Shown here: positions 14,815-47,842 of the stretch, piece after piece
How positions within the stretch are numbered: the first letter of the stretch is position 1
How the letters are laid out: the number at the start of each line of letters is the position of its first letter
Program-made: the position numbers and the translations under genes
IMG/VR virus record: IMGVR_UViG_3300021479_000008
Span: 1-55,002 of that record
Direction: 5' to 3' (one strand)
DNA length: 55,002 nucleotides
DNA from: a virus
Notes under the pieces: model-generated
Told to the model about the DNA's origin: nothing
Databases searched by the model: none
The model's input: only the letters and a program-made list of their open reading frames with translations

Positions 14815-15326
14815 TAGTCACCATACGTACTAGTAAATCGTTGTATTCCTTTAATCCCATTGGCAACTTGTGGTTTAGCAGTTCTACTCCCATTCCAACA
14901 CTGTACCTTTCCAACTTTACCATTTACAAAATTAACCTGTATCCAAGTTCCGTCACCTTCATATTCTGTGTTTCGAGAATACATCCGACGGGTTACTGAA
15001 TTATTATCTTTCCCAAAAGAACGCATTTCCATCATATGATCAACAGTTTCAATACTATCCGAACCCGCATTCATATCGGGATTATGTTCGACCAGTCTTT
15101 GTCTCGCTTTCTGCCGTACTGCCGGTGTAGTGCTTGGATCTGGACGCGAAATGATCTTCGAGTAAGGTCTAGCTAGCATTGCTGTCTCGGCTTCACTCGG
15201 CGTATCGTGCTCACTGATTACATCCTGATATTTCGTATCGACAACTTTATACTTACGTCCTATCTTGGAACTGCCCCCTCCTTGACTTCCTTCACAGTAT
15301 AACGTTATGGAATCTTGAAGGTTCAT
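14814..15326 (-). CDS. Unknown protein with MNLQ leader
   Basis: A 170-residue protein starting MNLQDSITL, nearly the same as MNLQTAITL (27859) and MNLQEAVSM (26429). Residues 12-24 (EGSQGGGSSKIGRK) sit where GGPGSGC sits in the protein at 26954-27859 and may be a degenerate form. The middle is polar, and the C-terminal 60 residues have strand-like TWIQVNFVNGKVGKVQCWN. Start ATG overlaps the gmd stop (ATGA). Function unknown; the leader links it to the GGPGSGR proteins. Confidence 0.55.
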   Translation of the reverse strand: MNLQDSITLYCEGSQGGGSSKIGRKYKVVDTKYQDVISEHDTPSEAETAMLARPYSKIISRPDPSTTPAVRQKARQRLVEHNPDMNAGSDSIETVDHMMEMRSFGKDNNSVTRRMYSRNTEYEGDGTWIQVNFVNGKVGKVQCWNGSRTAKPQVANGIKGIQRFTSTYGD

Positions 15327-16294
15327 GCCGTCACCATACGCTGTGCTTCTTTTATGTCAGCTAAAACCATCAACTTTACCAAATCCAAAAAGTTTGTTTC
15401 TGGAACCCATCCCAACTTAACGGCCGCTTTGGTAGCATCAGCTAAAATTGTATATGTTTCACTATGTCGCAACGAATCACTAGAGAATGGGACTAGATCT
15501 ATTGTACGTACATCGGCAGCTTGCATTGCAGCTTTCAGAAATTCTTGTACCGTATGACCAATCCCCGTACCTATCACAAAATCTTCCGGTATATCCTGTT
15601 GTAGCATCTTATACATCGCTTTGACGTAATCGCTGGCATAGCCCCAATCACGTACTGTTGTAATTGTACCAAGCTTTAACGCAGGTTTCTCTCCGATCGC
15701 ATACTGTGCAACTGCACGTGTAATTTTTCTCGTGACCATGTCTTCTGTTCTTCGAGGACTTTCGTGATTGAAAAGAATACCACCAACCACGTAATAGCCT
15801 TTGTCTCTGTACATCTCAACTATTCTGTGTGCTGCATACTTGGATATACTGTACGGAGTAATAGGATTAAACGAAGTATTTTCATTTACTACAACCTGTC
15901 CTTTCCCATCAAACTTACCGTACATAGTTGCAGAAGATGCCTGGTAAACACGAGTATTCTTGAACTGCAACTTTTCGACGCAACGCATAAGCCGCATGAA
16001 ACCGTTCGTGTTAACATCAAACGTATCAACGGGATATTCTATACTGGCTGGAACAGTTGACTGTCCCGCAAAATTGTAAATCTCATCTGGTTCAACTCTT
16101 CTGAGTAACGTCAATAATGATAATTCGTCTCGTATATCGGCATAAGCATATCTAACCCCGGAAATAAAATTCCCGCCAGATGATAGTGTACTTCCTCTGG
16201 CCGTTCCCCATACCTCATAACCAAGTCCGAGTAACAACTCTGCCATATAACTTCCATCTTGTCCAAGAGCGCCAGTGATTAAAGCTTTTTTCAT
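15323..16294 (-). CDS. gmd: GDP-mannose 4,6-dehydratase
   Basis: GMD makes GDP-4-keto-6-deoxymannose, the branch point to GDP-fucose, rhamnose and related sugars. The 323-residue protein has the NAD(P)-binding ITGALGQDGSYMAELLL, NFAGQSTVPASIE, the S-(Y)xxxK dyad in SSATMYG and PYSISKYAAH, the GMD signature LFNHESPRR and RDWGYASDYV. It is a short-chain extended dehydrogenase of near-normal length (E. coli Gmd has about 373 residues). It overlaps the methyltransferase gene by four bases, consistent with one sugar pathway. Confidence 0.9.
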   Translation of the reverse strand: MKKALITGALGQDGSYMAELLLGLGYEVWGTARGSTLSSGGNFISGVRYAYADIRDELSLLTLLRRVEPDEIYNFAGQSTVPASIEYPVDTFDVNTNGFMRLMRCVEKLQFKNTRVYQASSATMYGKFDGKGQVVVNENTSFNPITPYSISKYAAHRIVEMYRDKGYYVVGGILFNHESPRRTEDMVTRKITRAVAQYAIGEKPALKLGTITTVRDWGYASDYVKAMYKMLQQDIPEDFVIGTGIGHTVQEFLKAAMQAADVRTIDLVPFSSDSLRHSETYTILADATKAAVKLGWVPETNFLDLVKLMVLADIKEAQRMVTA

Positions 16295-17568
16295 TTTGCC
16301 CCTATCGTCATCGTAGCGATTCGCTGTTCTGTCTCAACTATCATGGGACGTGGAAGTGGGAAGATAAACCTGCCCCCACCTTCCAACCATTTCTCTTCTC
16401 GTTTACGAATACTCTCACGGAAGTGCCACGGAAGTACGAGTGCTGTTTTTGCCTTACTACGAAACTCTTCTTCAGTAATAATTGGCCACCATGTTCCAAC
16501 CATTCGTAACCCAATCTTATGCTCATCTCGATCGGCTACACCAAGGACCATTTCCGATCCGCCGTTCCGAAACATAAACTGGGTTAAGACTGTACCGCGA
16601 GTAGAAGCTCCGTACGCATACAAAGGAGCATATTTCTCCAACGTCATTTTCAACACAGTAGCCAGATTCTTTGCCCGTTCTGAAAACAAATAGTAGGCTG
16701 CATTCGTATCAAGACCCATCTTCATTTCCAACAACTGGGTTGTGTACATTGTATCACCCAACGACTTCGTTTCCTCTGTCATTTTGTTTACAAATGGCGG
16801 ATGGGAAATATATACCCGTAACGATCCACCGTTTGACTGACTCAGTTCCACACCTTTTATTTCTAGACCTGCACGCTTCACCGCTTCTTGTAACGATAAC
16901 AACGAGTAGTAGGCAATATGTTCGTGACAAATAAAATCCAACGCACAGTCTTTCAGCATCGTACCGAGATAGTTTAACTGGATGATAAGAATGCCTTCAT
17001 CATCTAACAGGTCTCGGCAATCTTCCAGAAACTTTACCGGATCACTCACATCGTAGAACATTGCGACTGCCGTAATGATCTTGAACTTGGGAACGACTCC
17101 CATTACCGTGACTGCTTCTTTGGAAAAGAACTCCGGTATACCTACATCTATCTTATCGTTCGCCATGCCTTCGGCAATAAGTTCTCCGCACGGATCGACT
17201 CCGAATGTCATGACTCTTTTATCGTACCAACCTAATAGGGTACCGTCATTCGCGCCAATATCCAATACTCTATCTCCCGGTTCCATCTGAACTGCTGCCT
17301 GGGCATGTTGCACAACTGCAAGCAATTCGTCTCTCATCTGTTCGTTGATACCACTACGATACCAGAACTTACGGTACAACCTTTCTGGGCTGACTTTATT
17401 CTTCAACTGAACAAGATGGCAACTTGGACACTTCATAAGTATAAGCGGAGCTTTCAATAATTTCTCGTCTTTCTCTTTTACGAAATCAACAACGTATTGC
17501 TCCCCCATGTCTAACAACGGTGTTACGGGTGTCTTGCAGATCAAACATTCTTTCATTTCTTCGATCAT
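16291..17568 (-). CDS. Sugar C-methyltransferase (SAM dependent)
   Basis: A 425-residue protein with the three-part structure of NDP-sugar C-methyltransferases. An N-terminal zinc module has CLIC and CPSC pairs (residues 8-50). The class I SAM-binding core has VLDIGANDGTLLG. The C-terminal domain has LYAYGASTRGTVLTQF and VLPWHFRESI, typical of the domain that completes the active site. Such enzymes add a methyl branch at C-3 of keto-sugars. Placed directly after gmd, it may act on the 4-keto-6-deoxy sugar made there (inference). ATGA junctions on both sides. Confidence 0.85.
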   Translation of the reverse strand: MIEEMKECLICKTPVTPLLDMGEQYVVDFVKEKDEKLLKAPLILMKCPSCHLVQLKNKVSPERLYRKFWYRSGINEQMRDELLAVVQHAQAAVQMEPGDRVLDIGANDGTLLGWYDKRVMTFGVDPCGELIAEGMANDKIDVGIPEFFSKEAVTVMGVVPKFKIITAVAMFYDVSDPVKFLEDCRDLLDDEGILIIQLNYLGTMLKDCALDFICHEHIAYYSLLSLQEAVKRAGLEIKGVELSQSNGGSLRVYISHPPFVNKMTEETKSLGDTMYTTQLLEMKMGLDTNAAYYLFSERAKNLATVLKMTLEKYAPLYAYGASTRGTVLTQFMFRNGGSEMVLGVADRDEHKIGLRMVGTWWPIITEEEFRSKAKTALVLPWHFRESIRKREEKWLEGGGRFIFPLPRPMIVETEQRIATMTIGAK

Positions 17569-18698
17569 ACCAACACTCCCTTATATTCCAGACTACACAC
17601 TCGATTATAAGCCCCAACCCATTTTCTCATGCAATACGCCGTTCGATGTATAAATGACTTGGCATCTACAGTCCAAATCTTTCCTGTAAATTTCTCTACT
17701 TGATCTTCCATTCTTTCTGCCAACGAAAGATAACAATCTGAATACGTCGTACCATCCAACTTTTCTTCATGCAACCATTCTGTCAAATCTTCGAGCATCT
17801 GGATACAAGCATATTCTTTTACTAGGTCTTCCATGTAGTCGTGATTGTTACGAATGTGATTTACAATGGGAGTACCTATTCTGATCTTCTGTCCCATCTT
17901 CTTAACGCATGCTTGCAAAAAATATCCGGTAAAAATATCAGCGTGATGGTCTATTCGCATTCCGTTGATTACATTTCCCATCGGGATGAAGTAGTTGGCG
18001 ACCATTGCTTCTCGACTAACGGCTGTGTTCTGGGAATTTATGGGAGACCACGTCTTGTCCCCAAGAAAGAACGATCTACTATTATATACCGGTTCTGGCT
18101 TTGACGTAAAACTCATCCACGTTAAAGCGTCTAGGTCTGGATCTTCCATCCACAACCCCTCATTAACAGCTACAATTCCGTTTACATCACTCTTTAATAT
18201 GACTGGCCCTTTTTCATTTCTTTGTTTATAAGGAAATCCTCTGGGATAAGCCTTCAAACGCAAATGATTGCAAATGTTACACCACGACGATTGTACTTCC
18301 GACTGTGTGTCTCTTTGTCCAACTAAACTGTGTAAATTAAAAAATCCAGAATCTTCGCGACAGTAATTATCATCATCTATACTGATGATGACTTCACACC
18401 CATCTTGAAGTGCTTTGAGATACCCAACGTTCCGACGATTATCCGAATTTACTGGGATAAGATCAAAGCCGAATTGTTCACGTAAAAACATCCGCTGCAC
18501 GTTTATAGGTTCATGCCAAACATCCCATCCAGCGGATGAAAACCTATAACACTGTTCGTACAACTCATGCGGCGTTTTTAGATCTGGAACAATGTAAAAC
18601 GTAACATCTTCTTGTACACCTTCGGCTTCCGCTTGCTTACAGTATCCTTCCAGAAACTTTCCATCGCCAATCGTCGTGCATACTAATCCAATTTTCAT
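17565..18698 (-). CDS. GT75/STELLO-like glycosyltransferase
   Basis: A 377-residue protein. IISIDDDNYC near residue 105 is a GT-A DxD metal site. YPRGFPYKQRN, PINSQNTAVSREAMVANYF and RIDHHADIFTGYF resemble reversibly glycosylated polypeptide (GT75) and DUF288/STELLO proteins, where similar 'PRGFPL' and 'NSQNT' segments occur. These proteins bind NDP-sugars and act as mutases or transferases. No signal peptide is visible. Its position between the methyltransferase and the radical SAM enzyme suggests the same glycan pathway. Confidence 0.65.
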   Translation of the reverse strand: MKIGLVCTTIGDGKFLEGYCKQAEAEGVQEDVTFYIVPDLKTPHELYEQCYRFSSAGWDVWHEPINVQRMFLREQFGFDLIPVNSDNRRNVGYLKALQDGCEVIISIDDDNYCREDSGFFNLHSLVGQRDTQSEVQSSWCNICNHLRLKAYPRGFPYKQRNEKGPVILKSDVNGIVAVNEGLWMEDPDLDALTWMSFTSKPEPVYNSRSFFLGDKTWSPINSQNTAVSREAMVANYFIPMGNVINGMRIDHHADIFTGYFLQACVKKMGQKIRIGTPIVNHIRNNHDYMEDLVKEYACIQMLEDLTEWLHEEKLDGTTYSDCYLSLAERMEDQVEKFTGKIWTVDAKSFIHRTAYCMRKWVGAYNRVCSLEYKGVLV

Positions 18699-18704
18699 AT
18701 TCTC

Positions 18705-21122
18705 CTATCTGTTTGCTGGCCTCATGCTGATGTTGTCTTTGATCCATGTTCCCAGTTGCGTTCTCGCAGTAAACAACTCCTGCTTTGTCATCGTATCCAA
18801 ATCCAATATCAATGTACTGGGATCGTCGTCGTTTAGTTCCCACATCTTCGAGAAAGCGTCAATCGGAAGTTCTTTGATACCAAAACGTTCTGGGGTAATC
18901 CATACTTGCGATCCCGGATATGGCTGAAACATATGCAGACTAGCTGCGTCGGGTTTCGCTGTCTCCAACCATTTCTGCATCTCGTCTATACTCTCCCAAG
19001 TCTCACCGGGAAAACCTATCAACAAATAGGCTCTGGCGACTATACCCGCGTCTTGGCAAATCTTGATGCCTATCGTGTTTGCTTCTGGAGTAGTTCCTTT
19101 GTTCATGGCTTTGAGCATTCTCGGGGAACCATGCTCGACACCGAATCCCATTTCGGTGCATCCACGTACTGCCATGTACTCGAACAACTTTGGGTCCATC
19201 AGATTAACTCTACTCCATCCGCGCCAGAGCATTCCGTAGTCATGGAATATATCTACCAGCTCCATACAACGTTTTGCTTTGATTGTTAAGACGTCATCCC
19301 ATATTCTCAACGAATTAATGCCATGATTGGCCAACCATTTAACTTCTGCTTCCACCTGAGCAGGGGTTTCTTCACGTAACTTTGTTCTTGCGTCTGCACA
19401 AAAGTAGCACCCATACGGACAATTATGCACTAACACTCCATTCGCAAAGTAGTTATGCACTGGATGAACGGTAATATTATAAACCTTTGCTTTACCAACA
19501 AATGTTTTTTTAACTACCTTTGTCCAAACCCCATAAGCTGTTGTATTAGATGGGACCTGTTGTAGGTTTTCAAATGGCGAGTCCACACTATAAAAATCTT
19601 CCACCCATATTTCTTGTAATCTTTCCGTTCTACCTTGTCTTTTTTCTTGTCTTTGTGCCAATGTTCTCCATGTACCAAAATAGCTTTTTTCTTCTTTGAA
19701 TCTACAAAATCCGGATTTCGTCTTGTGCCAGATATACACGGCCCTATCCAAAACTGTCCATCTCCAACGTAACGAAAGTCTGGAAGATATTGACGTAATA
19801 TAACTTCCAATCTTGCCTCGGGCCTGCTTTGCGTGATCCCTGTTCCGTGAGATCGTTCCCACGGCATCGTCATTAAACCTTTTTTCCATCTCTTGGTCAA
19901 AGCCTTCGACATTATTTTGCTGTATTTCCTCTTGATTGTTTCTGAAACTTTTTTTGCTACTTCCGGACGTTTCATTGGATTCAAGTCGCCTTTCTTGCAT
20001 TCCGATAAAAGCTTCCGAACCCTTTTGGTAGGAACAGGAGGATGCCCCCAAAACTTGGACCGTTCCTCCTTCGTCATTTTCCTCGCCATTCGTCTCATCT
20101 GTCTGTTGCCGTGTGTTGCCATATAAGCTTTGTAACATTCCACAGAACAATACGTTGCCTTCCTGATCTTGTATTCCTGAAACTCGGTCAGACATTGTGG
20201 ACAACATATCCATTCCTTCACAGACATCTTTGATTTCTTCCCATCCATATGGACTCCAAACGGGATGTTCTCCGGTAATCTGTAAAACTGTTCCATTTTC
20301 TAACTTTAATTCCCACACATCAGTTGCATCTCTTTCCCAAACTGCTTGAACCGGAGCTGATACACATTCAGAACTATCTGTATTAAAACCCCGTACTAAA
20401 TCTCCAACTTTAATCGCTTCAACTGGAAGCGCTGTTCCATCGTGTAATGTTACTAACGTTCCTGCTACAATACATCCCCGCGCAGTCCATAAAGAACCAA
20501 TAGTCCGTTCTGTTGCATCCACTGATTTACCATGCTGGGAATTAACAAGTAGACCTCCTTTGCCCCATTCTCCATCCCACAGATCGTATGCTGGTAATGG
20601 CATCTTCAACACATCCGGTAACGGTGGTTGTGGATTGTAATGTATCGTTCCATCTAAGTCAAACCATCCGAAACCCGGCACGTTTAGAATTTTGCCTTGT
20701 TCCCAATCGTTGCAAAACTGGACGAAGGAGTCTTCGCACTCTCCAGCCATGAGATAATCAAAACCTTGAAAGAACTTCTTGTGCTTGAACTGCTTATGTG
20801 GTCCGTGGAGAATATACGTTACATGCGGACCACCTGCTACCTTTACTTTCGCTGGCCATGTGGCAGCAAGCTGTCCTCCGAATTCTGCGTTAGGCGTTAC
20901 GCAACTTACTCCGAGAATATCACATGGCTCAAGCAACTCTTTCAAAACGATTAACTTTCCACGTTCGTTATCCCACGCTGTCAGTTTGTGACAATCAACA
21001 ATCTTTACCTCATGCCCAGCTTCACGTAAAGCCGCACCTAGATAAAGTAAACCAAGGCTAACATGGAGGCTTGGCGTGAATAAAGCAAACGACGGACCGC
21101 CTGTGAGAATTACTTTAGCCAT
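18705..21122 (-). CDS. Cobalamin-binding radical SAM enzyme interrupted by an intein
   Basis: The 805-residue product contains a host enzyme of 454 residues. Residues 1-150 look like a B12-binding Rossmann domain (GLLYLGAALREAGHEVKIVD, DILGVSC, VAGGPHVT, LMAGECED). After the intein (217-567) comes CPYGCYFCAD, the CxxxCxxC motif that binds the [4Fe-4S] cluster and SAM, followed by IWDDVL, GFGVEHGS and LLIGFPGETWES, typical of B12-dependent radical SAM methylases and BchE-like enzymes. The unspliced protein separates the cluster motif from its N-terminal half, so activity should require splicing. Substrate unknown; the location suggests sugar or glycan modification. Confidence 0.87.
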   Translation of the reverse strand: MAKVILTGGPSFALFTPSLHVSLGLLYLGAALREAGHEVKIVDCHKLTAWDNERGKLIVLKELLEPCDILGVSCVTPNAEFGGQLAATWPAKVKVAGGPHVTYILHGPHKQFKHKKFFQGFDYLMAGECEDSFVQFCNDWEQGKILNVPGFGWFDLDGTIHYNPQPPLPDVLKMPLPAYDLWDGEWGKGGLLVNSQHGKSVDATERTIGSLWTARGCIVAGTLVTLHDGTALPVEAIKVGDLVRGFNTDSSECVSAPVQAVWERDATDVWELKLENGTVLQITGEHPVWSPYGWEEIKDVCEGMDMLSTMSDRVSGIQDQEGNVLFCGMLQSLYGNTRQQTDETNGEENDEGGTVQVLGASSCSYQKGSEAFIGMQERRLESNETSGSSKKSFRNNQEEIQQNNVEGFDQEMEKRFNDDAVGTISRNRDHAKQARGKIGSYITSISSRLSLRWRWTVLDRAVYIWHKTKSGFCRFKEEKSYFGTWRTLAQRQEKRQGRTERLQEIWVEDFYSVDSPFENLQQVPSNTTAYGVWTKVVKKTFVGKAKVYNITVHPVHNYFANGVLVHNCPYGCYFCADARTKLREETPAQVEAEVKWLANHGINSLRIWDDVLTIKAKRCMELVDIFHDYGMLWRGWSRVNLMDPKLFEYMAVRGCTEMGFGVEHGSPRMLKAMNKGTTPEANTIGIKICQDAGIVARAYLLIGFPGETWESIDEMQKWLETAKPDAASLHMFQPYPGSQVWITPERFGIKELPIDAFSKMWELNDDDPSTLILDLDTMTKQELFTARTQLGTWIKDNISMRPANR
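19422..20474 (-). mobile_element. Intein at the radical SAM cluster cysteine, with an out-of-frame nested endonuclease
   Basis: This is residues 217-567 of the radical SAM gene. The intein starts CIVAGTLVTLHDG (Cys1), has block B ITGEHPVW near residues 282-289 and ends VYNITVHPVHNYF then GVLVHN; the next residue is Cys568, the first cluster cysteine. The Hint blocks are intact, so splicing is expected. Between blocks B and F the intein frame encodes about 245 residues rich in Gln, Asn, Glu and Ser with no recognisable fold. Over this stretch the +1 frame encodes a complete EDxHD-type endonuclease (19514-20296), which explains the odd composition. Confidence 0.9.
19514..20296 (-). CDS. EDxHD (Vsr-like) homing endonuclease nested in the intein frame
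   Basis: A 260-residue protein read in the +1 frame relative to the surrounding intein. It has a CPQC...CSVEC treble-clef-like finger (residues 32-55), a NUMOD3-like helix array (KGDLNPMKRPEVAKKVSETI) and a Vsr-fold nuclease core: SRPEARLEVILRQYLPDF (Glu), RRNPDFVDS (Asp), ILVHGEHWHKD (His) and RKDYKKYGWKIFIVW (Asp). This E-D-H-D order matches the family of I-Bth0305I and of the endonucleases linked to split inteins. The coherent architecture shows this frame is under selection. No strong ribosome site precedes the ATG. It would cut intein-less alleles of the radical SAM gene (inference). Confidence 0.85.
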   Translation of the reverse strand: MEQFYRLPENIPFGVHMDGKKSKMSVKEWICCPQCLTEFQEYKIRKATYCSVECYKAYMATHGNRQMRRMARKMTKEERSKFWGHPPVPTKRVRKLLSECKKGDLNPMKRPEVAKKVSETIKRKYSKIMSKALTKRWKKGLMTMPWERSHGTGITQSRPEARLEVILRQYLPDFRYVGDGQFWIGPCISGTRRNPDFVDSKKKKAILVHGEHWHKDKKKDKVERKDYKKYGWKIFIVWTRHLKTYNRSHLIQQLMGFGQR

Positions 21123-21473
21123 TTATTTTCTCCACGGCTCATGGACCAATTCATCGTCTCGATCTAATCCACTACTTTGCCTAAATGCTTGATTCGATTT
21201 GAATCCTATAGGCTTACCTTTTGGGTCCGTTTCTATCACATACGCCATTTTCTGCATTTGGTATAAACTGAGAGTATTACGTAACGTATATGATGAACAC
21301 TCTACTACCGTTCTAAACGGAACAATAATTGGTTTATACGAAACAGCATCACACGTAACATGCTGTTCACTTGTAGCTTCCCCACGAATTGTTCTGGCAA
21401 AGATGCACGAATCACACAACGATTTTCCATGCAACGGCGTGCCATCCCTTACACCTCTCCATCTTTGGCTCAT
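21123..21473 (-). CDS. Small cysteine-containing protein, unknown
   Basis: About 116 residues. LCDSCIFARTIRGE, HVTCDAV, IIVPFRTVVECSSY and QMQKMAYVIE follow a pattern ('C..C......C......iPf.V.eC..Y...') that I recall from small phage and soil-bacterial proteins, probably zinc or Fe-S binding. I start it at ATG 21473 because AGGAGAATAAGT precedes it and it directly follows the upstream stop; the longer frame to 21491 lies inside the upstream gene. It abuts the radical SAM gene (TAA-ATG). Confidence 0.6.
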   Translation of the reverse strand: MSQRWRGVRDGTPLHGKSLCDSCIFARTIRGEATSEQHVTCDAVSYKPIIVPFRTVVECSSYTLRNTLSLYQMQKMAYVIETDPKGKPIGFKSNQAFRQSSGLDRDDELVHEPWRK

Positions 21474-21475
21474 AC

Positions 21476-22210
21476 TTATTCTCCTATCCAATTCAACGCG
21501 ACTTCGTGATTACTGTTTCCGTGTGTTCCTACTGCACCGATATGCTGCCAATAACTATTCTCCGTTGTCCAACGTTCTCCCGGTCTGGCATAAGCGTGAT
21601 GAAGGTCTACTGTATTACCTCCACCCAAATGTTCTGGTACTGCAAATCCTCCATGACCTAGTCTCCAATTCGGAGCGTACTCTTCCCATTCGCGTCTGGA
21701 GACGGTTCCTATACCGGCTATGGACGTTACTTGAATATCTGTTCCTCCCGGGCCTGGTAAATACATCCAACCTTGTGTTTTAACTGTACGATGATGACGC
21801 GTGTAAGAGCTTCGGTATACTGACCATGCTTTTGCATTAGGGCGACGTTCTATCAGCATTATCAATGCCGTTAACCAATCTGGGTTATACAAGACATCAT
21901 CGGTCAACAAACAAACGTGAGTGACTTCCGGGTGATGACGAAACATCTGATCTGTCGTCCATATCACAACTGGATCTAATCCGTTTATCCATTCCGGTTG
22001 TTCCGCCGTTAACGTTCTGGAAAAGGGGAACTTGAATATCCAAGACTTGTAGTCGAATGTAATATTCGAAACTTTGTACGTAAAGTACATCCCAAACACT
22101 TTGTCTTTCAAATCTAGCTTTGTTTTTACCAACGAAGCAAAAGAACGTTCGGCATACTCCTTTCTCTGCTCGTTGTAAATATACGACACCAAATTTAGCC
22201 CAAGGTTCAC
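21476..22210 (-). CDS. GT-A type glycosyltransferase, putative
   Basis: About 244 residues. NLVSYIYNEQRKEYAERSF at the N-terminus and HVCLLTDDVLYNPDWLTAL near residue 110 (a TDD in place of DxD, followed by 'pdwL') match GT2-like enzymes. Residues 150-200 (SSYTRHHRTVKTQGW, GIGTVSRREWEEY) and the His/Gly-rich C-terminus would form the acceptor side. I choose the GTG at 22210: it overlaps the upstream stop as GTGA and AAGGAG lies five bases before it. A longer frame to 22258 lies inside the upstream gene without signals. Confidence 0.62.
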   Translation of the reverse strand: MNLGLNLVSYIYNEQRKEYAERSFASLVKTKLDLKDKVFGMYFTYKVSNITFDYKSWIFKFPFSRTLTAEQPEWINGLDPVVIWTTDQMFRHHPEVTHVCLLTDDVLYNPDWLTALIMLIERRPNAKAWSVYRSSYTRHHRTVKTQGWMYLPGPGGTDIQVTSIAGIGTVSRREWEEYAPNWRLGHGGFAVPEHLGGGNTVDLHHAYARPGERWTTENSYWQHIGAVGTHGNSNHEVALNWIGE

Positions 22211-22722
22211 GCTATCTCCTTGACTGCATACATCTTTTCTTGGTGGTCTATATTCCACAACAAGTCGATCTGGTGAATTATCTCTGAGCGCTTGTCGTTC
22301 AGATCGTTGATACTGAACAAAACTTCGGCGGCTCGTTTCGAGGCTTGTACGGCAAACCTGTCTGGAGCGTCTCTCAGGATTCTGGCTTCGTCTTCCAATT
22401 CCCAGATCTTTCCGTTTATGTCTGAAAGCTGATCGTACAACGAATCGTATTTACTAACTATCTGGTCACTCGTTGCAATATCTGGAATATAGTACTTGAT
22501 AAGATAGTCTTGGACTAGCTCGTACTCATCCATAAAGGCCAGGGCATTTCTGTGTTTTGTCTTGTCTCCTTCTAACACTTGACGGGTTACGGCTTTCAAC
22601 ATTGCTTTAGGACGCATCTCTGGTTGTCGTTCCATGACTCCCGTATCGCAATGAACCAGTTTCAGTTCCAAAATCGTCTGTCGATCTACAAGTTCACCAG
22701 GCTTTGGACGAATTATTGACAT
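22207..22722 (-). CDS. DUF6165-like helical protein
   Basis: A 171-residue, almost entirely helical protein. Its start PKPGELVDRQTILELKLVHC and end KIWELEDEARIL, SINDLNDKRSEIIHQIDLL resemble DUF6165 ('SPGELIDKITILEIK ... N..LW.IED.IR ... IN..Ra..K..IN'), a family usually found beside glycosyltransferases. Here too it sits between two glycosyltransferase genes, overlapping both. The biochemical role of the family is not known to me. Confidence 0.65.
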   Translation of the reverse strand: MSIIRPKPGELVDRQTILELKLVHCDTGVMERQPEMRPKAMLKAVTRQVLEGDKTKHRNALAFMDEYELVQDYLIKYYIPDIATSDQIVSKYDSLYDQLSDINGKIWELEDEARILRDAPDRFAVQASKRAAEVLFSINDLNDKRSEIIHQIDLLWNIDHQEKMYAVKEIA

Positions 22723-23591
22723 ACACTCTCCTTTTCCAACTTTCTATTCAATCCATGCTGTCCAAAGAATAATGCACACTGCTTGGCTGCTTCTTCTGGA
22801 GGCGTACCATATACTGGTGATGCTTCCGGCCAATGTGTATTACTAAATGTGCTTCCAAACTGTCCTTGATGATGTCTTGCGGGGTGTGGCTCGTATAAAA
22901 ATATATTTGCTTGTCCTACACCACTCGCTAGTACGTACTGACTTGATCTACATCCGACGAATGCTTTGGCAGACTTTATTACAAATGTAGCCATTCTCCA
23001 ACTTAACTTATTCGTTTCTATAAATTGCTCATCTGGGAGCAATGAACGTAACGTGTTCAGGAAAGCTCCTTTCTGATCTGCATACAGCTCGTTAAAAGAA
23101 TAAGCTATGAAATCTTCCGGCTTGTTTTTCCACCTACCAGCTTTAGTTAGTATCAAATCCCAATACTGATTGTCTGCTTCATTAGCGTGAGCGGGAAATA
23201 TTGCTGCACCAGTACTGATAAAAGGACAAACAGGCTCGGGTAGAACGATTCCTTGCTGCGATGCTATGAAATCGACTAACGGTTGATTTGGTGCTGGATG
23301 ATGCCTGTACGTAAGGTGATAAACATTCTCGTACTGATATCTCAATGCTTCGTCGTTCTGCGGGATGGCTGGCTGATCACCATATGGACTGCCTTCACAT
23401 GCCCACGGCTCATTTACGAAAGCAGTGTCTATATACTCCTGTTGCTGGAGTAATGGAAGCAGGCTACGGTAACTGGGCATGATGCCCATATCTACTTTTT
23501 CATTATGCTTACGACTCAGTTCTCGTACTGTCGGAAGGCTCCACAAAATGTCCCCAAATTTTCCACTGAACGTACAGAGCGTCTTACTCAT
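22713..23591 (-). CDS. GT9-like glycosyltransferase (heptosyltransferase fold)
   Basis: A 292-residue protein. The opening TLCTFSGKFGDILWSLPTVREL is the characteristic 'G.lGD.i...P....L' of ADP-heptose-type GT-B transferases, and KAFVGCRSSQYVLASGVG near residue 215 matches the 'fig.dsg..HlAaalg' donor-site segment with C/R replacements. The C-terminal half is shorter than in LPS heptosyltransferases (about 350 residues). It begins the sugar island downstream of a proline-rich gene with a TAATG junction. Confidence 0.72.
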   Translation of the reverse strand: MSKTLCTFSGKFGDILWSLPTVRELSRKHNEKVDMGIMPSYRSLLPLLQQQEYIDTAFVNEPWACEGSPYGDQPAIPQNDEALRYQYENVYHLTYRHHPAPNQPLVDFIASQQGIVLPEPVCPFISTGAAIFPAHANEADNQYWDLILTKAGRWKNKPEDFIAYSFNELYADQKGAFLNTLRSLLPDEQFIETNKLSWRMATFVIKSAKAFVGCRSSQYVLASGVGQANIFLYEPHPARHHQGQFGSTFSNTHWPEASPVYGTPPEEAAKQCALFFGQHGLNRKLEKESVCQ

Positions 23592-44907: not shown

Positions 44908-45098
44908 CACAACTCCGAAATAAACTTAGGTCTTGTTTCCAACGTCAACTGCCACTGATGCCAATAAGTAGATCTACCAACTCTGTACACAAGCGTACCT
45001 ACTTGTAAACCAACGGCACTAACAACTCCACGTCCCTTGGGTGTTTTTACAATATCACCACGTTGAAACTTTGCTGGTATACAACGCAAATCTTTCAT
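44907..45098 (-). CDS. Small KOW-like protein
   Basis: A 63-residue beta-rich protein (KFQRGDIVKTPKGRGVVSAV, GTLVYRVGRSTYWHQWQLTL) resembling a KOW/SH3-type barrel. Overlaps the SbcDC fusion gene by four bases (ATGA). Function unknown; possibly nucleic-acid or protein binding. Confidence 0.55.
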   Translation of the reverse strand: MKDLRCIPAKFQRGDIVKTPKGRGVVSAVGLQVGTLVYRVGRSTYWHQWQLTLETRPKFISEL

Positions 45099-47842
45099 TC
45101 TACCTCCAATCTACTGACTCGATTATGCTTACGTACTGTAATTGTTCTTTCTCCATGTAACTCAGAAAGTATTTCCCGGTTATGACTACAAATCCAGATA
45201 GCGCCAAATCGTTTCTTCAGGTCTTGCAACGAACGAGCAAACTGTCTGGCTGTCTGGGCATCAAGCCCTTCTCCCGGTTCGTCGAGTATCAGAAGATTAC
45301 ATTTCGGGGCTACCTCACGTAAAGCAAAACTGGAAATAAGTCCTGCTAGTGCTCTTTCTCCACTTGACTGATCGTCTATCTCTGCTCCACCTCTTGGGTT
45401 GATGATCTTAGGAGAAAACTCGCCGTCTTCAATCTCAAACCGCACTTGTAACTCATTATCACTGAACAACTCGGCATAATAACTGGCAGCTCGATTAAGT
45501 ACTGGGCACAACTGTACATTAAGAAAAGCGGGGATACCATCTCTGGAAAATGCCTCGGCAGCGAATTGATATACCTTAGATTTTCTCGCATAGTGTTTCA
45601 ACTGTAGCTTCAACTTTGCTTTCTTTCGTTTGAGTTTTCTAAGTCTTGACTCTGCATGTTTGATTGTTCTTGATTCTTTGGACTTGGCCAATATATCGGC
45701 GTACTGCGAACGCAACGTTTTCTCCTGCAAACTAAGTTTAGTAAACTGTTCCTGTTCTTCGTATTCCTTATCCTGTAACACACTAACTTTTTTGTCATAA
45801 CGTTTTAACCTTTTCTCTGCTTCATCCCATATCCTACGTCTTCGATCGAACTCGGCTTGTACTTTTTTGGAATAACGCTTTGTCCACGTCTTACTGACTG
45901 GTTGGAAACACGTTGGACATTCTTTCTTATGGGCGACTTTAAACCACCTACCACTTACCTCTGTATATTGCTCGAACTCACGTTGACTGACTATATACTT
46001 TTCCTTCAGCTTATTCAACTTATGAATCTGACTTACCAACTTCTTGTTACTGGGGCAAATGATCTTTGATAACTCCTTCTTGGCATTTTCCCAATTCTCT
46101 TTCACGTTCCTTAACTGAATACTGGAAATAGACTTGAGATCTACTATGGAACGTACTGTATGCTTGATTGCTTCTCTGGCCCCATTCAACTTCCCAAGTA
46201 TTCTATAACGCTTGGCTTCATTTTCAGTAATATCCAACTTTACAAGCTTAAGCGCTTTTTCAAAACGTTCAAGATTTTGGACGCGAGACAATACTTCAGT
46301 TCTGGACTTTCTGGTTCCAGATAGAAACGCATTGGCAACAGATCTGTCAATGTAAACGGCGTTGGCAAGCGTTTGCCAAGTAAAACCTGTACTTTGTTCA
46401 ATTTGAATCTGTGTAGTACCTTCTTTTCTGTCATTTGATTTCATCCCCGAACTAACATCTACTCCATCTTTCTTCATCTGTAGCATTGGTGGCCTACGAC
46501 CACGTTTTATCTGAATGATCTGACCTTGATGATTTCGTAACTTCAACCTAACGTATGCTTCATCTTTTGTCCAACGACTGGCCCAACTGTCATGCTTCTG
46601 TTCTTTAAACGTCCTACCAAATAAAGCGACTGGAATAGGCTGTAACAATGATGTCTTTCCGGACCCGTTGCTCTTACCACCTCTGTCTTCGTTTACTCCC
46701 CGAATAATAGTAATACCATTACTTGAAAGATCAACGTCAAGTGTTCTGTATGAAAGAAAGTTCTTGGCTCTCATACTAAGAAACTTCATACTAAGACTTT
46801 GACGTGTACCACCTTCACACTGGGATAGGACTTGGAGCATGTACTCTATAACCATCGACGGGGCATTCTTGCTTTGCTTAATAAATTCTCGTACTTTCTT
46901 TTCGTCGGAATCGGATGTGCTAATTCTGGATCGTCCAAAGTCGCTAACGCTTTCATTGAACTTTGGTACGACGAAGATTTCTGCTCCTTTATACTTTCGT
47001 TCTGCTGTATGTCTAGCTTTTTCAAGTCGTCTACCGTAATCTTGACTAGCATCACAGGACACGGGATATCTAATCCTGGTGCCTGTCCAGCTCGTAGGCT
47101 TATATCTTTCAAACCCATCGACACTGACGTCATACCATCCTGGGATGGTTGAAAGCTCAGATGCGAGCCCATCTTTCCCCACAATAATATATCGTTTTTG
47201 TTGATTGACTTCACCCCAATCTGTGCAGAAAGGGCTTCCAACATAATACGTCTGCGTTCCTTCAATACGTTGCGGTAGATGGATATGACCAGCAATAGTG
47301 TATCTATAACTAGTAACCCGAAGATCGCCCACAGAAAGTTTTGCATCTGACTTACCTCCCAAATTATTGTACTTTGCTCCACTAATGTCTTGGTGAAACA
47401 ACAACACATCTTTCGTTTTATCTGGGTGTGACTTTAGTAAATTCTTGGCTGATGCTTTTACGTTTGCTACTGTATCCCAAGGGAGAATAAACAACCTCTC
47501 TTCTCCTGTGTTGTATATACCCGGTTTATCGTATGTCTTGGCCCCTGCTCGGCGTAATATTGAAAACCAGTTATTGGCCTGCGTGTACTGCCCTATCCTG
47601 TCGTGGTTTCCAAGTACACATATGACTGTGTATCCAAGTTTTACTGCTTGGCGTATTGCCCTTTGCCACCACTGCACAACTCTAACGTCCACTGGATTGT
47701 ATGTGGCTTTGAGGTCTCCACATACTACGATCGTACGCAGCTTATACTTCTTGCACAAACGCAGTATCTGATCCCATGCTTTGGAGCAGAGATCCAGATT
47801 TGAAAAGTCACACTGAAAATCGCCTGTAACTAAAAACGACAT
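45095..47842 (-). CDS. SbcD-SbcC (Mre11-Rad50) fusion protein
   Basis: A 915-residue single-chain recombination nuclease. Residues 1-245 are the Mre11/SbcD phosphoesterase: TGDFQCD, VVCGDLKATYN, VLGNHDR (78-82), LLFHQD and AGHIHLP (184-190). Residues 352-915 are Rad50/SbcC: MKFLSMRAKNFLSY, Walker A GGKSNGSGKTS (388-398), long coiled coil, zinc hook CPTC near 640, signature SSGERALAGL near 838, Walker B NLLILDEPGEGLD near 860. T4 and bacteria use two separate chains (gp47 and gp46). No internal stop or reinitiation site is evident at the junction near residue 345. It would trim DNA ends for recombination. Confidence 0.9.
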   Translation of the reverse strand: MSFLVTGDFQCDFSNLDLCSKAWDQILRLCKKYKLRTIVVCGDLKATYNPVDVRVVQWWQRAIRQAVKLGYTVICVLGNHDRIGQYTQANNWFSILRRAGAKTYDKPGIYNTGEERLFILPWDTVANVKASAKNLLKSHPDKTKDVLLFHQDISGAKYNNLGGKSDAKLSVGDLRVTSYRYTIAGHIHLPQRIEGTQTYYVGSPFCTDWGEVNQQKRYIIVGKDGLASELSTIPGWYDVSVDGFERYKPTSWTGTRIRYPVSCDASQDYGRRLEKARHTAERKYKGAEIFVVPKFNESVSDFGRSRISTSDSDEKKVREFIKQSKNAPSMVIEYMLQVLSQCEGGTRQSLSMKFLSMRAKNFLSYRTLDVDLSSNGITIIRGVNEDRGGKSNGSGKTSLLQPIPVALFGRTFKEQKHDSWASRWTKDEAYVRLKLRNHQGQIIQIKRGRRPPMLQMKKDGVDVSSGMKSNDRKEGTTQIQIEQSTGFTWQTLANAVYIDRSVANAFLSGTRKSRTEVLSRVQNLERFEKALKLVKLDITENEAKRYRILGKLNGAREAIKHTVRSIVDLKSISSIQLRNVKENWENAKKELSKIICPSNKKLVSQIHKLNKLKEKYIVSQREFEQYTEVSGRWFKVAHKKECPTCFQPVSKTWTKRYSKKVQAEFDRRRRIWDEAEKRLKRYDKKVSVLQDKEYEEQEQFTKLSLQEKTLRSQYADILAKSKESRTIKHAESRLRKLKRKKAKLKLQLKHYARKSKVYQFAAEAFSRDGIPAFLNVQLCPVLNRAASYYAELFSDNELQVRFEIEDGEFSPKIINPRGGAEIDDQSSGERALAGLISSFALREVAPKCNLLILDEPGEGLDAQTARQFARSLQDLKKRFGAIWICSHNREILSELHGERTITVRKHNRVSRLEVE

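Follow-up and report, generated by a model that had tools for sequence, protein, structure and literature searches.

An EDxHD homing endonuclease gene overprinted on the linker of a contiguous phage intein

Inteins classically carry a homing endonuclease fused to their splicing domain, or have lost it. Here, we describe a different arrangement in a 55,002-nucleotide virus sequence from IMG/VR (record IMGVR_UViG_3300021479_000008, positions 1 to 55,002; henceforth termed the window), in which a B12-binding radical SAM gene is interrupted by an intein and a second gene, read in the +1 frame of the host gene, lies within that intein. Very probably the insert in this phage B12-radical SAM gene is a cis-splicing intein that is mobile, and its homing endonuclease is a separately started +1-frame gene overprinted on the linker between the splicing subdomains; the endonuclease probably spreads the intein. 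At the level of sequence, the two-layered layout is real and recurrent, being present in four contigs at two insertion sites.

The interrupted gene and its nested frame

The host gene (18705–21122, minus strand) is a single open reading frame (ORF) of 805 codons with Pfam matches to Radical_SAM (E 5e-15), B12-binding (E 1.8e-8) and Intein_splicing (E 3.2e-12). The intein spans C217 to N567, is contiguous within the host ORF and is followed by C568 as the +1 residue; its splicing residues are intact. Its insertion point immediately precedes the first Cys of CxxxCxxC, the radical SAM motif (RG/CPYGCYFC); this site is empty in an intein-less B12-radical SAM homologue of Streptomyces phage SF3 (SRGCPYDCGFC). 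The N-terminal nucleophile C217 and the block B TxxH motif (T283-G-E-H286) are present, their Cys and His being invariant in the intein alignment, and the C-terminal H566 and N567 followed by C568 correspond to the required HN and subsequent C, S or T. AlphaFold models both HINT halves with a predicted local distance difference test score (pLDDT) near 90 and the linker between them with 28–52, and Foldseek matches the predicted HINT fold to the Ssp and Npu DnaB mini-inteins (E 1e-8). With nucleophile and block B, a terminal HN/C, a HINT fold and a conserved host motif that is empty in homologues, the insert is a contiguous intein of class 1 type, predicted to splice. The division of host and intein over two ORFs that defines a split intein or fractured gene is absent from the single 805-codon ORF, and an Rfam search for catalytic intron RNA of group I or II gave one sub-threshold match, outside the intein.

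The nested ORF (19514–20296, minus strand, 260 codons) lies inside the intein in the +1 frame of the host ORF. The intein stretch that it overprints runs from just past block B to the beginning of the C-terminal splicing subdomain, and the two ends of the endonuclease overlap both splicing subdomains slightly. Single-sequence matches of its product are weak, namely to Vsr with E 0.0024, below the Pfam cut-off, and to a PHROG homing endonuclease with E 3.6e-4. A family profile of 41 sequences, by comparison, matches I-Bth0305I (3r3p, E 5e-8) and Vsr (1cw0, E 5.6e-8). In the 41-member alignment E160, D196 and H214 are invariant or nearly so, and D226, which fits the second Asp of EDxHD, is present in the window and in two of the related contigs described below (L010 and L023). 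AlphaFold assigns residues 151–260 a pLDDT of mostly 85–97, and a Foldseek search with this predicted nuclease domain returns I-Bth0305I first with probability 1.00, though with E 2e-3. The nested protein is, by profile and predicted structure, an EDxHD/Vsr-type homing endonuclease, predicted to cut the intein-less allele. A first-pass annotation of the window had proposed a complete EDxHD endonuclease overprinted in a contiguous intein, a proposal that would have fallen had no EDxHD match been found; the ORFs, the splice residues and the profile matches to I-Bth0305I and Vsr bear it out.

The features of the locus are as follows, all on the minus strand.

18705–21122: B12-binding radical SAM host gene with intein, 805 amino acids (ORF list, Pfam)
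20475–21122: N-extein, residues 1–216, B12-binding domain, ending ...WTARG (Pfam, sequence)
19422–20474: intein, C217–N567 (Pfam, sequence)
20190–20474: N-terminal splicing subdomain with C217, block B T283-G-E-H286 and GW motif (alignment, AlphaFold pLDDT about 83–93)
19539–20189: intein-frame linker, stop-free, with no confident fold, overprinted by the endonuclease (pLDDT 28–52, frame-identity test)
19422–19532: C-terminal splicing subdomain, blocks F and G, ending VHN/C (alignment, AlphaFold)
18705–19421: C-extein, radical SAM domain, beginning CPYGCYFC (Pfam, sequence)
19514–20296: EDxHD/Vsr-type homing endonuclease ORF, +1 frame, 260 amino acids from the first ATG (ORF list, profile, AlphaFold, Foldseek)
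20254–20257: Shine-Dalgarno-like GGAG within intein codons W289-S290 (sequence)
20246–20248: probable true endonuclease start, ATG at ORF codon 17 (GGAG with 5-nt spacing; aligns near the L010 protein start)
20135–20206: cysteine-rich finger of the endonuclease, C31 C32-x2-C35 ... C50-x3-C54 (sequence, weak zinc-finger matches)
19517–19846: nuclease catalytic domain, residues 151–260, with E160, D196, H214 and D226 (family alignment, profile, AlphaFold, Foldseek)

The previously proposed length of 260 residues describes the ORF, while the protein itself is likely to be shorter. The first ATG has no Shine-Dalgarno sequence and was set aside as a start, and translation probably begins at the internal ATG at 20248, which would give a protein of about 244 amino acids with an N-terminus resembling that of the L010 protein. 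In L042, the third related contig, AAGG lies 6 bases ahead of a GTG at endonuclease codon 31. The DNA that encodes the conserved GW region past block B, which is the canonical endonuclease insertion point, contains these start signals. Around the radical SAM gene, the window carries a run of sugar or surface-modification genes (15323–23591, minus strand), among them a C-methyltransferase and an RGP-type glycosyltransferase.

Recurrence, stop codons and constraint by frame

Relatives were found by degenerate motif and alignment searches of viral contigs. The motif search recovered L010, a 175,952-bp contig. The intein of the window recurs at the same position in its homologous radical SAM gene (43% identity), together with a same-phase endonuclease 51% identical to that of the window. 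The alignment search recovered L023 (34,805 bp). Here a different radical SAM gene is interrupted by an intein before the third Cys of the motif, and the endonuclease overprinted on it, again in +1 phase, is of the same subfamily (GDGxxWxGPCxSGTxRNPDF). L042 (199,098 bp) contains another radical SAM gene with an intein at the third-Cys site and a more distant endonuclease, again in the same phase; an intein-less relative of this host, at 49% identity and with a clean empty site, is found in a 735-kb phage (LR756501). All four hosts have intact intein residues and domain matches. No relatives were returned by single-protein searches of viral contigs, by a DNA search of phages or by an alignment scan of genome contigs. 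Among the 51 genome stretches of the intein-end pattern there was no intein; they were mainly radical SAM proteins that read VHNCPFECSYC by chance, and short chance frames. None of the inteins of known phages proved to be overprinted; those of Vibrio phage 13VV501A, Microcystis phage Mvi-JY20 and Mycobacterium phage Cane17 are ordinary mini- or in-frame inteins.

For a stop-codon test, the endonuclease codons were permuted among their own synonymous positions, keeping the protein unchanged. The intein frame of the window contains 0 stops against about 14 expected (18 with local codon usage), whereas the third frame contains 17, as expected. Across the four contigs the intein frame has 0 stops each, compared with permuted means of 14.4, 14.8, 9.4 and 8.6, while no alternative frame of the 41 related endonuclease genes, be they free-standing, split or in frame, contains fewer than 9 stops. 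The earlier suggestion that selection keeps the intein frame free of stops is thus supported.

Residue-level constraint follows the other frame. Between the window and L010, whose endonucleases share 51% identity, mismatches by endonuclease codon position are 0.42/0.31/0.62, the pattern of a conserved protein. Over the overlap, the similarity of the intein frames equals the null set by the endonuclease (z 0.2). That of the endonucleases lies above the reverse null by z 11.6, and other pairs behave alike. The most variable host codon position is 3 in the exteins and splicing subdomains and 1 within the overlap. Since intein-frame similarity equals its null and the variable position switches to 1, linker residues are unconstrained except as codons, in agreement with the low AlphaFold confidence of the linker (pLDDT 28–52). 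By these sequence comparisons, residue-level conservation in the overlap belongs to the endonuclease frame only, and the intein frame is merely held open. This agrees with the first-pass view of an intein-frame stretch that has no fold; a broken endonuclease frame in related phages, which would have spoken against that annotation, is not what the relatives display, as their endonuclease frames are intact and conserved.

The shared +1 phase has a simple property. An intein-frame stop requires an endonuclease NNT codon followed by a codon starting with AA, AG or GA, and because the change from NNT to NNC is always synonymous, all such stops can be cleared with the nuclease left unchanged. Codons preceding AA, AG or GA codons end in T in 0/83, 0/65, 0/68 and 0/73 cases in the four genes, compared with 19–35% elsewhere, and all pyrimidine-ending codons at these positions end in C. 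In the other phase, a TGA is unavoidable wherever Met precedes M, I, K, N or T, and 2 to 4 such pairs occur in each of the four proteins. The +1 phase is therefore the sole one in which the intein frame can open without altering the endonuclease. In simulations, the observed phase was open by default at a frequency of about 0.2 at a third-position GC content (GC3) of 0.95, and the other phase never; an origin of the overprint in GC-rich genomes is suggested.

Expression, mobility and rival readings

We envisage that the ribosome would read the entire intein frame, and that the long unfolded linker would leave together with the intein upon splicing. Translation of the endonuclease would start separately at its internal ATG, whose Shine-Dalgarno sequence lies past block B within the conserved GW region. 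The nuclease would then cut intein-less radical SAM alleles, and repair would copy intein and endonuclease together. Several points weigh against this reading. Expression, splicing and cleavage are predictions from sequence and modelled structure, and all four cases are metagenomic contigs. Mobility is deduced from disjunct insertion rather than from closely related filled and empty alleles. The start signals of L010 and L023 are weak, unlike those of the window and L042, and the L042 endonuclease, which lacks the usual His, may be a variant or decayed.

One alternative would produce the nuclease mainly by programmed frameshifting, yielding a fusion of N-intein and endonuclease beside the spliced host protein, with the internal start of little importance. 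Such fusions are known as split genes (L028, see below), a fusion is possible in principle as the N-terminal splicing subdomain contains the beginning of the endonuclease ORF, and the weak start signals of L010 and L023 fit this idea, yet good Shine-Dalgarno sequences precede codon 17 in the window and the GTG codon 31 in L042. Judged by these start signals, frameshifting is unlikely to be the main source.

The intein could also be split in effect, its C-terminal part being made separately and splicing in trans, so that continuous reading of the intein frame would be unimportant. In related radical SAM genes (L061, L063 and L066), an endonuclease gene does lie between the two halves of a split intein, and fractured genes with this layout were reportedly described by Dassa et al. 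in 2009. Like the window, fractured genes combine an intein with a separately coded endonuclease at the canonical point between splicing subdomains; their host and intein are, however, broken into two ORFs, whereas the intein frame of the window runs through the endonuclease gene. Trans-splicing gives no reason for a stop-free linker, yet all four linkers are stop-free, and the nearest intein-frame starts before the C-terminal part in the window are GTG codons that have no clear signals. This makes the proposal very unlikely.

Out-of-frame endonucleases in phage genes with no known intron have a precedent in the ShiLan domain and the Pacc40 insertion, which place HNH endonucleases in methylase genes of mycobacteriophages (Arsenault et al. 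2025, PMC11855218). As in the window, these elements encode a whole endonuclease out of frame in an insertion through which the host frame stays open, and their distribution is disjunct. Unlike the window, they have no intein splicing domain, no self-splicing was detected and their nucleases are HNH rather than EDxHD; by the coordinates of that paper (GTG at positions 18–20) the ShiLan nuclease lies in the +2 frame of the host, as opposed to +1 here. The window thus shares the out-of-frame endonuclease in an open host frame and departs from ShiLan in possessing a splicing domain. A similar element that stays in the radical SAM protein unspliced is most improbable here, as the full set of intein splicing residues and a HINT fold flank the endonuclease and an unspliced insert in the catalytic Cys cluster would be expected to abolish the enzyme.

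Finally, the probability of an accident, be it an in-frame endonuclease displaced by an assembly error or a second frame open by chance, is practically negligible: although the window is a single metagenomic contig and some phage endonuclease genes carry frameshifts (L002), four contigs share the layout, single indels would not leave both frames open over 240–275 codons where 9–15 stops are expected, and codon-position variation tracks the endonuclease frame across the whole overlap.

Related architectures, origin and implications

The cis-splicing intein with an overprinted endonuclease can be placed beside other arrangements of the same parts. Classical bifunctional inteins with in-frame LAGLIDADG, HNH or EDxHD nucleases use the same insertion point and the same homing logic, but join nuclease and splicing domain in one polypeptide and one frame. 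I-Bth0305I (PDB 3r3p), an EDxHD endonuclease of a phage group I intron (PMC3943268), shares the catalytic domain fold and motif with the window endonuclease and differs in being encoded in a group I intron instead of an intein. The Vsr mismatch endonuclease (PDB 1cw0, 1vsr) shares the nuclease fold and the PDF-x11-HGxxWH motif; unlike the window protein it is a repair enzyme, is not mobile and has no finger or NUMOD-type DNA-binding region. The first-pass annotation knew of no described case. Literature text searches, with subscription papers outside their scope, likewise gave no description of a contiguous intein with an overprinted endonuclease, although out-of-frame endonucleases in host genes that contain no intein are published (PMC11855218); cited there is a 2025 preprint about non-canonical inteins of actinobacteriophages (bioRxiv 2025.01.02.630785), which may bear on priority.

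In-frame forms of the endonuclease occur in a QueE-like radical SAM protein (L040, 3443–5251), whose intein contains an EDxHD endonuclease, and in the second of two inteins of a terminase-like ORF (L157, 10428–13968). Split forms occur in viral contigs whose radical SAM genes are broken up by split inteins (L061, 2966–5643; L063, 4070–6688; L066, 6616–8135; L062, 1–2037), with a NUMOD-type endonuclease ORF that overlaps both halves; in L061, L063 and L066 this ORF lies between the intein halves with overlaps of 11–35 bases. In L028 (2870–5345), a helicase gene is split by an intein whose N-terminal half continues in frame into an EDxHD endonuclease, and the ORF of the C-terminal half overlaps the end of this fusion by 8 bases. 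Two inteins share one radical SAM CxxxCxxC motif in L058 (2837–5673) and also in L059, L064 and L068; in this type the third Cys is preceded by a split intein whose C-terminal half is joined to the endonuclease, and a mini-intein lies before the first.

In the endonuclease tree the window groups with L010 and L023 (98/96), and L042 with the in-frame L040 and the half-fused L028 (99/97), hinting at two independent origins of the overprint. This claim is weakened by the long branches involved and by an approximately unbiased (AU) test, which does not reject a single clade (p 0.227). The overprint inside the intein stands as first proposed; its derivation from a free-standing endonuclease that invaded a mini-intein does not follow, because phage inteins, in radical SAM genes and elsewhere, house the endonuclease superfamily in frame, as split genes and overprinted, so that invasion, a frame change of a fused endonuclease and the rejoining of a split gene are equally possible routes. 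We slightly favor the broader view that overprinting has uncoupled splicing from homing in a class of mobile inteins, with more than one origin in phage radical SAM genes, always in the one phase that allows all stops to be removed synonymously and perhaps arising first in very GC-rich genomes.

Elsewhere in the window, a 187-codon ORF (46846–47409, minus strand) in the +1 frame of an SbcC/SbcD-like gene (45095–47842, minus strand) is a second possible overprint. An equally long open run appeared in 0/500 synonymous permutations of the host; the product has a hydrophobic stretch and no PHROG match.

Overprinting would constitute a third arrangement of intein and endonuclease beside fused and lost. 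It would let the nuclease be made free, at its own level and time, while tying two selfish functions to the same bases, such that a stop codon in the intein frame would kill the host gene. The synonymous T-to-C rule explains the phase in a simple and testable way, and supplies a DNA signature with which to find cases that are annotated as one protein with a disordered insert. Assays of splicing, translation and homing can start directly from the four diverged examples at two insertion sites.
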